Shown here: positions 32,301 through 32,814 of the stretch, piece by piece
Numbering within the stretch: position 1 is the stretch's first letter
Layout of the letters: each line of letters starts with the position of its first letter
From: Fibrobacter sp.
GTDB taxonomy: Bacteria > Fibrobacterota > Fibrobacteria > Fibrobacterales > Fibrobacteraceae
DNA: 64,000 nt
Direction: 5' to 3'
Assembly (NCBI GenBank): GCA_017526585.1
Contig: JAFXRC010000067.1
Coordinates: 1-64,000 of the forward strand
Translations under genes and position numbers: made by a program
Notes under the pieces: model-generated
What the model saw: only the letters and a program-made list of their open reading frames with translations
Database searches by the model: none
What the model was told of the DNA's origin: nothing

Positions 32301-32484
32301 TGGGAAAAGGGATGAAGCAAAGGAAAAGGGACTGCGGCTGCGCCAGTCCCCGCTTCGCGGCTGGCTTGCCGCCCTTCGGGCTTAACACTCACTTCGTTCG
32401 CGTTAAGCTCCAAATTCCTTTCACGGGCTTTGCCCACAAAGGAATTTGGTCGCACCCTCTTCTCGTTTCCGAGTCCCGTTCACG
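32301..32484. repeat. Structured tandem element, copy B
   Basis: About 185 nt made almost entirely of hairpins and followed on the plus strand by a strong terminator (32485-32530). Read on the plus strand it begins GTGGGAAAAGGGA-like, then has GGGACTG/CAGTCCC, a GCCC-TTCG-GGC stem, TTAAC-type stem and the main 11-bp stem CCAAATTCCTT / AAGGAATTTGG (32410-32449). It has no credible coding frame. Copy A lies 208-230 nt further right with the same order of parts. Orientation is unresolved. Confidence 0.6.
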
Positions 32485-32530
32485 CTCTAAAAAAGAACGC
32501 CACCGTTAAGGTGGCGTTTCTTTTTTAGAG
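32485..32530. terminator. Terminator closing copy B (symmetric)
   Basis: GCTCTAAAAAAGAACGCCACC pairs with GGTGGCG...CTTTTTTAGAGC across a 5-nt loop, about 20 bp with one bulge, T runs on both sides. Confidence 0.8.
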
Positions 32531-32698
32531 CGGGAAAAGGGATTGATTCGTCGCTAGTTTCCGGTCTGCGACCGGCTAGCTCCTCACCCTGACGGGCTTA
32601 TCGCTGCGCTCAAAGTCCTAAATTCTTCCCACGGGCTTACGCCCACGAAAGAATTTAGTCGGCCCCTCTTCGAGGGTTCGTGTCCATCACCTACTTGT
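32531..32698. repeat. Structured tandem element, copy A
   Basis: Begins CGGGAAAAGGGAT, the same as copy B and as the complement of the tRNA-Gly 3' end. Contains CCGGTC/GACCGG, CCC-TGAC-GGG and the main stem CTAAATTCTT / AAGAATTTAG (32618-32658) with inner GGGC/GCCC. Against copy B the main stem differs at two base pairs, both changed on both strands (T-A to C-G), which supports a conserved fold. Followed by the terminator at 32699. Confidence 0.6.
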
Positions 32699-32739
32699 AA
32701 AAACAAAAGAACCACCTGTTAGGTGGTTCTTTTGTTTTT
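32699..32739. terminator. Terminator shared by tRNA-Gly (minus) and copy A (plus)
   Basis: AAAAACAAAAGAACCACCT / AGGTGGTTCTTTTGTTTTT is a perfect 19-bp stem with loop GTT, T-rich on both sides. It begins 3 nt after the mature tRNA end on the minus strand. Confidence 0.88.
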
Positions 32740-32741
32740 AG

Positions 32742-32814
32742 AGCGGGAAAAGGGACTCGGACCCTCGACCCCGACCTTGGCAAGGTCGTGCTCTACCAAC
32801 TGAGCTATTCCCGC
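32742..32814 (-). tRNA. tRNA-Gly (anticodon GCC)
   Basis: 73-nt cloverleaf: acceptor GCGGGAA/TTCCCGC, D arm GCTC-AGTTGGTA-GAGC with G18G19, anticodon arm CGACC-TTGCCAA-GGTCG, T arm GAGGG-TCCGAGT-CCCTT, discriminator T. CCA is not encoded. The T loop has TCC where TTC is nearly universal, so position 55 would be C instead of the pseudouridine precursor U. Confidence 0.93.

Follow-up and report, generated by a model that had tools for sequence, protein, structure and literature searches.

The 64,000-nt stretch of Fibrobacter sp. DNA analysed here (contig JAFXRC010000067.1, positions 1 to 64,000; hereafter the window) carries two tandem units of ~213 nt each; they make most sense when read on the minus strand, where they follow tRNA-Gly(GCC). 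They belong to a repeat family that is real, protein-free and unnamed in Rfam, and that is confined to Fibrobacter and three sister genera. In appearance, the cassettes are closer to a DNA insertion element than to a gene for a small RNA. Our preferred reading, with about an even chance of being correct, is that the repeated module would be a non-autonomous element that inserts or folds back at the DNA level and targets T-arm-like sequence.

The tRNA-Gly(GCC) array

Read on the minus strand, the array runs from the promoter through tRNA-Gly(GCC) and a terminator into unit 1, a tRNA 3'-end copy with a second terminator, unit 2 and further 3'-end copies (Table 1). Besides the promoter of the tRNA gene, no second promoter-like site was found between positions 31900 and 33000. 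A first-pass annotation of this DNA had described two direct-repeat units between genes, and these are present as described, with the symmetric terminators and the identical hairpin order that it reported. The GGGAAAAGGGA with which it saw the units open proved to be copies, on the other strand, of the tRNA 3' end CCCTTTTCCC, at the three places listed in Table 1.

We denote the tRNA 3' half as S, the 5' half of the T-arm as S1, the 3' half of the T-arm plus the acceptor strand as S2, and the inverted copy of S as S'. The T-arm of tRNA-Gly(GCC), GAGGG-TCCGAGT-CCCTT, is the template of the S1 and S2 copies. On the minus strand, the order is the intact tRNA ending in S, a terminator, S', a head hairpin, C, the four hairpins P1-P4 of the module, an S2 copy and the next terminator. 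The right arm of the head hairpin is an S1 copy (GAGGGGCCGA at the end of the hairpin in unit 1), and the module interrupts a second, partial copy of the tRNA 3' half at the position of the T-loop (TCGA|A); this copy is otherwise direct. The suggestions of a "tRNA-derived repeat" and of "remnants of integrations at the tRNA" in the first-pass annotation are supported by this interruption of the copied 3' half, which recurs at Pro, Ser and tmRNA genes.

The inverted copy of the RNA gene end lies between the intact gene and the module. Together, the tRNA end, the terminator and S' form an inverted repeat with 48-nt arms, which in the window (I1; 32670-32717 and 32721-32768) are 77% complementary and include the tRNA 3' half. 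S' is degenerate in several units, with a similarity z of up to 8 and a mean of 3.3 over 51 segments; the spacers of unit 1 and unit 2 resemble the inverted 3' part of the tRNA at z = 5.9 against shuffles.

Table 1. Positions of the promoter, tRNA gene and array features in the window, in minus-strand order.
Feature	Position	Strand	Basis
Consensus promoter TTGACA-17-TATAAT of the tRNA-Gly gene	32826..32854	-	12/12 match
tRNA-Gly(GCC), intact	32741..32814	-	ARAGORN; Rfam RF00005, 66.1 bits
Terminator hairpin 1, symmetric, A-tract/T-tract	32699..32740	-	Centre of inverted repeat I1
Unit 1 S', degenerate inverted copy of the tRNA 3' half, and head hairpin CCCTC-GAA-GAGGG	32659..32698	-	Sequence
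Unit 1 module P1-P4, four hairpins	32544..32658	-	R1 match 102.9 bits, E 1.5e-23; alignment A1
Unit 1 tail, tRNA 3'-end copy (S2) ATCCCTTTTCCCGCTC	32528..32543	-	Direct repeats D1-D3; 3'-end motif found again
Terminator hairpin 2, symmetric	32488..32527	-	Inverted repeats I2, I4
Unit 2 inverted copy S' GAGCGTGAACGGGACTCGG..., then S1 copy GAGGGTGCGA	32450..32487	-	Inverted repeats I2, I6
Unit 2 module P1-P4	32333..32449	-	R1 match 105.4 bits, E 3.2e-24
Unit 2 tail, tRNA 3'-end copy GTCCCTTTTCC	32322..32332	-	Direct repeat D2
Further tRNA 3'-end copy without module (ATCCCTTTTCCCACT)	32299..32313	-	Direct repeat D3
Array-end segment (CTCGTTTAGCACGCTTTTCCCTCTC and flank), also at array ends elsewhere	32264..32298	-	G000:C62 vs L006, 84%; L009, L054, L065

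Several other features of these loci were observed. In the window and at the other tRNA-Gly(GCC) loci examined, this tRNA has the T-loop UCCGAGU, in which position 55 is a C; the T-loop of tRNA-Gly(CCC) has the normal UUCG start. Position 55 is U in nearly all elongator tRNAs. A shared segment ACACTCGTTTAGCACGCTTTTCCC (relatives: CGCCTACGGCGTCCGCGGC), with hairpin loops of the complementary TNC type, closes the array of the window and those at L009, L054 and L065. Six loci in several genomes (L046, L047, L048, L052, L053 and L062) carry a second repeat family (GCCAGGCGTTACGGGCTGGCGCCTGAAGCCCGTTAGAAGGGG) at the array end, either behind the last module or cutting into it. A 461-codon open frame at 30681-32066 on the plus strand, antisense to a sulfhydrylase-like gene, is probably a shadow frame.

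Arrays vary in their number of units and tRNA copies, and copy number differs between genomes. Modules can stand in tandem without an end copy between them, and a unit in a sister genus stops right after P4 without a tail copy; both observations count against an insertion element. In a genome of a sister genus (G100), two tRNA-Gly loci (L156 and L157) are near-identical over promoter, tRNA, terminator and module, with the likeness stopping right after P4, as if this entire block had been duplicated as a single unit. At another locus (L051, G069:C46), tRNA-Gly promoters in two places on the minus strand run directly into CCCTTTTCCCGCTC and a module array, and the tRNA body is absent, through either assembly collapse or real tRNA loss.

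Fold and loops of the module

The module is ~115 nt long and consists of four hairpins, P1-P4. P1 is a long stem with an inner hairpin of the GGGC/GCCC type, P3 (CCC-GN(N)A-GGG) has an invariant stem, and P4 carries a CAG-CC..GG-NNA-CTG tip on a freely covarying stem. Among 31 copies, compensatory changes were found in 19 of 28 pairs; standard pairs fill 95% of paired cells, compared with 28-45% in slid controls, and changes on both sides were counted in 165 cells, compared with 50.6 in shuffles. These are the further covarying copies whose lack the first-pass annotation had named beforehand as grounds for refutation, and the two double changes from T-A to C-G that it reported in the central stem are real (columns 2/40 and 9/33 of alignment A1). 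Alignment A1 contains 20 invariant columns, and the modules of the window fold far better than shuffles as RNA (z = -7.2 and -4.4). Stem mismatches on the folded strand include 14 G-T and 8 A-C. The G-T excess favours this strand, though not RNA over DNA; folded single-stranded DNA would be expected to show it too.

A protein-coding reading was rejected because every frame is closed by stops in most modules and lengths, which fall in all three residues modulo 3, are not multiples of three. The tRNA itself was the sole Rfam match of the array at gathering score (cmscan), in agreement with the earlier statement that no named family fits and contrary to the known Rfam match that the first-pass annotation had listed as another ground for refutation. 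A scan of the array at E<=1 returned 14 weak matches, none of them RtT and none with E below 0.05. A literature search for this repeat in Fibrobacter found nothing relevant.

The hairpin loops carry a common signature. Among 42 non-redundant modules, c(GNA)g closes 75 of 86 perfect triloop hairpins and c(GNNA)g occurs in 24 of 38 tetraloops, including GTCA, GCCA and GTTA, which are not GNRA; UNCG was absent from the tetraloops of these modules. All c(GNA)g and c(GNNA)g module loops share one strand. Elsewhere in the window, with both strands counted, the background for c(GNA)g is 14 of 582 triloop hairpins (2.4%). GNA and GNNA loops on G-C stems form extraordinarily stable DNA mini-hairpins (PMC4686876). 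The module may still act as RNA, since the contacts that d(GNA) loops make with their closing pair resemble those of GNRA loops (PMC5815330). GNRA loops, which are stable in RNA, are present too and count against a DNA element.

Distribution and the tmRNA loci

A DNA search matched 73 of the 80 genomes of the genus. Covariance model R1 matched 76 of 113 genomes of the order; these fall in 4 of 12 genera and belong to a single family. Across the 41 genera of the phylum, matches came from those same 4. All R1 matches with E<=0.01 in nine genomes, the window's and those of eight relatives, lie next to one of six RNA genes: tRNA-Gly(GCC), Gly(CCC), Pro(CGG), Pro(TGG), Ser(CGA) and tmRNA. In the genome of one relative (G042), the region downstream of each of the 51 tRNA genes was inspected, and module-bearing end copies occur only at those five tRNA kinds. 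That genome also has tRNA genes duplicated in tandem (Lys-CTT three times, and Asn, Leu-GAG and Glu twice each; L124, L136, L151 and L090), and no modules were found at these plain duplications. The exact pattern of a T-arm 5' half, 85-115 nt and a T-arm 3' half occurs at Pro(CGG) in 31 and at Ser(CGA) in 19 of 80 genomes, and never in reversed controls. A second covariance model, R2, for the Pro, Ser and tmRNA modules aligned poorly, with only 10 pairs, and was dropped. Gly-CCC modules are closer to the Gly-CCC modules of other genomes than to Gly-GCC modules in 21 of 22 cases, indicating that descent and turnover are mainly local and not by jumping.

At tmRNA, the DISCRIMINATING case, the module is found upstream of the gene, beyond its 5' end, and antisense to it in 5/5 genomes (L077, L080, L089, L192 and L193). 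Read from the module strand, the tmRNA 5' end is CCCTGTCGAAACCAGAGCACCCCC, which is T-arm-like, and the module again follows TCGA. We conclude that the orientation of the module follows the DNA motif TCGA|A and not transcription. A displaced tmRNA 5' end, a 15/16 identical copy, was found 149-155 nt upstream at the three loci that were measured, with the module beyond it; two of the three have promoter-like sites before the displaced end. Where the present and the displaced tmRNA ends differ (L077, L080 and L193, compared by eye), S' follows the present one, suggesting that the intact gene end and S' behave as one palindrome. The hallmarks of an element integrated in an RNA gene, namely an insertion inside the gene end, a restored end and a displaced copy at the far side, are thus found at the T-loop of Gly, Pro and Ser genes and at the tmRNA 5' end.

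Readings of the cassettes

The reading as a DNA-level insertion or fold-back element draws on the restriction to six genes, the interruption at TCGA|A, the orientation at tmRNA, the GNA/GNNA loops and known T-loop insertions. There is precedent in tmRNA islands for T-loop insertion that leaves end copies in tandem (PMC3146451). Such an element would arise and turn over at the DNA level and would target T-arm-like DNA. The copy of the gene's end that it bears would restore the RNA gene, and the old end would be displaced with the module beside it. The folded module strand with its GNA/GNNA loops probably represents single-stranded DNA hairpins formed during insertion or replication fold-back, and arrays would grow and shrink through recombination between copies.

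Counting against an insertion element, besides the mainly local descent seen for the Gly-CCC modules, no integrase or other gene was found in or beside the arrays examined. No linked site-specific recombinase is present in the array flanks; PF00589 genes are located elsewhere in eight genomes. A 278-aa tyrosine recombinase (eight relatives) was rejected as the driver because the window's genome and several of the module-bearing genomes lack a close match to it. Searches for phage, plasmid or viral copies of the module gave no match, and such an origin was discarded; four viral contigs with a 16-nt head motif gave no match to the model. A more specific proposal, which we hold to be tentative and somewhat unlikely, is that these are protein-free integrative cassettes that would act as folded single-stranded DNA with GNA/GNNA mini-hairpins, target T-arm-like sequences of a fixed set of tRNA and tmRNA genes in either direction of transcription, restore the gene with their own end copy and be mobilised in trans.

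An improbable alternative is a structured small RNA co-transcribed with the tRNA, of the kind of the E. coli rtT RNA. Read-through of the tRNA terminator would give a pre-tRNA with P1-P4 in its 3' trailer, and P1-P4 would be released by processing and would act in trans or sequester the inverted (anti-tRNA) copy. The strong compensatory covariation, the near-universal presence of the module in the genus and the coincidence of the folded strand with the tRNA-sense strand at all tRNA sites, where G-T exceed A-C mismatches, are consistent with it, as is the tRNA promoter that seems to run straight into the array at L051. However, at least one strong terminator separates the module from the tRNA promoter, the module lacks a promoter itself, Rfam holds no match, and the G-T excess would be expected of folded single-stranded DNA as well. 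The antisense and upstream position on that same strand at tmRNA makes such a read-through RNA a poor fit as the common principle. On these grounds of terminators, promoters and tmRNA orientation, we do not retain the "small-RNA gene" of the first-pass annotation as a general explanation.

The repeats could also be a neutral by-product, with neither element nor function, in which template switching during replication at the palindromic T-arm and terminator makes inverted and direct copies of gene ends, fold-back keeps the hairpins perfect and unequal recombination multiplies them. The succession of direct, inverted and direct end copies, with the 48-nt-arm inverted repeat centred on the terminator, is what snap-back copying predicts, and the local descent at each tRNA site agrees with this. 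Hairpins with paired changes can both arise and persist through template switching (PMC8794818); the earlier argument that covariation indicates selection for structure does not, therefore, follow of itself. We nevertheless consider a purely neutral origin unlikely: the four hairpins recur in the same order at six RNA genes, with CCC-GN(N)A-GGG near-invariant among them, and together with the 20 invariant columns of A1 this points to common descent and constraint. Moreover, most other tRNA genes, including tandem duplicates, lack modules in the one genome for which all 51 were examined. Template switching and the preferred insertion element are both DNA-level readings and may act together.

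Fixed attachment-site scars of past larger islands or phages, with the module as an attP arm region, are highly improbable: T-loop sites with displaced end copies are typical of such scars (PMC3146451) and tRNA and tmRNA genes are common targets, but no cargo or integrase was found at any array examined, phages, plasmids and viral contigs gave no match, and the same structured module would be needed in scars at six different genes.

Among known systems, the cassettes share features with several. The rtT RNA or tyrT repeats of E. coli are tandem non-coding repeats downstream of a tRNA gene, each with a tRNA 3'-end copy. Like them, the cassettes are tandem, non-coding repeats of ~180-210 nt with tRNA 3'-end copies downstream of a tRNA. 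Unlike them, the cassettes do not match the Rfam model of RtT (family summarised in PMC4986893), add an inverted end copy, terminators between units and a covarying four-hairpin module, and occur at several tRNA species and, in antisense orientation, at tmRNA. The ssrA islands of Dehalococcoides likewise insert in the middle of the T-loop, restore the RNA gene and leave tandem direct repeats of the gene end, but they are of kilobase size, encode serine recombinases and lie 3' of ssrA (PMC3146451), whereas the cassettes are gene-free units of ~0.2 kb and lie 5' of tmRNA.

Short, protein-free and hairpin-rich like REP/BIME, the cassettes are not dispersed as those are and are confined to six RNA gene ends. 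REP/BIME repeats are thought to act as folded single-stranded DNA and are associated with RAYT (Y1) transposases. The Y1 transposase family PF01797 has no member in the window's genome (G000) and is absent from 28 of 40 other genomes (present in 12/41); a Y1/RAYT transposase was rejected as the driver, its presence not being correlated with modules. Integron attC arrays are composed of short units that recombine on one folded DNA strand. The cassettes are arrays of short units as well, but unlike integron cassettes they have modules without an open reading frame, no linked integrase and a T-arm-like target.

If the preferred reading of a DNA-level insertion or fold-back element is true, hairpins of the ultra-stable DNA mini-hairpin class would do the work in a natural genetic element, and gene-free elements of ~0.2 kb would join those that target T-arms. 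It would also serve as a warning that an RNA gene should not be taken for granted from strong covariation beside a tRNA. Should the RNA reading prove true instead, the modules would constitute a new, genus-wide family of tRNA-linked structured RNAs.
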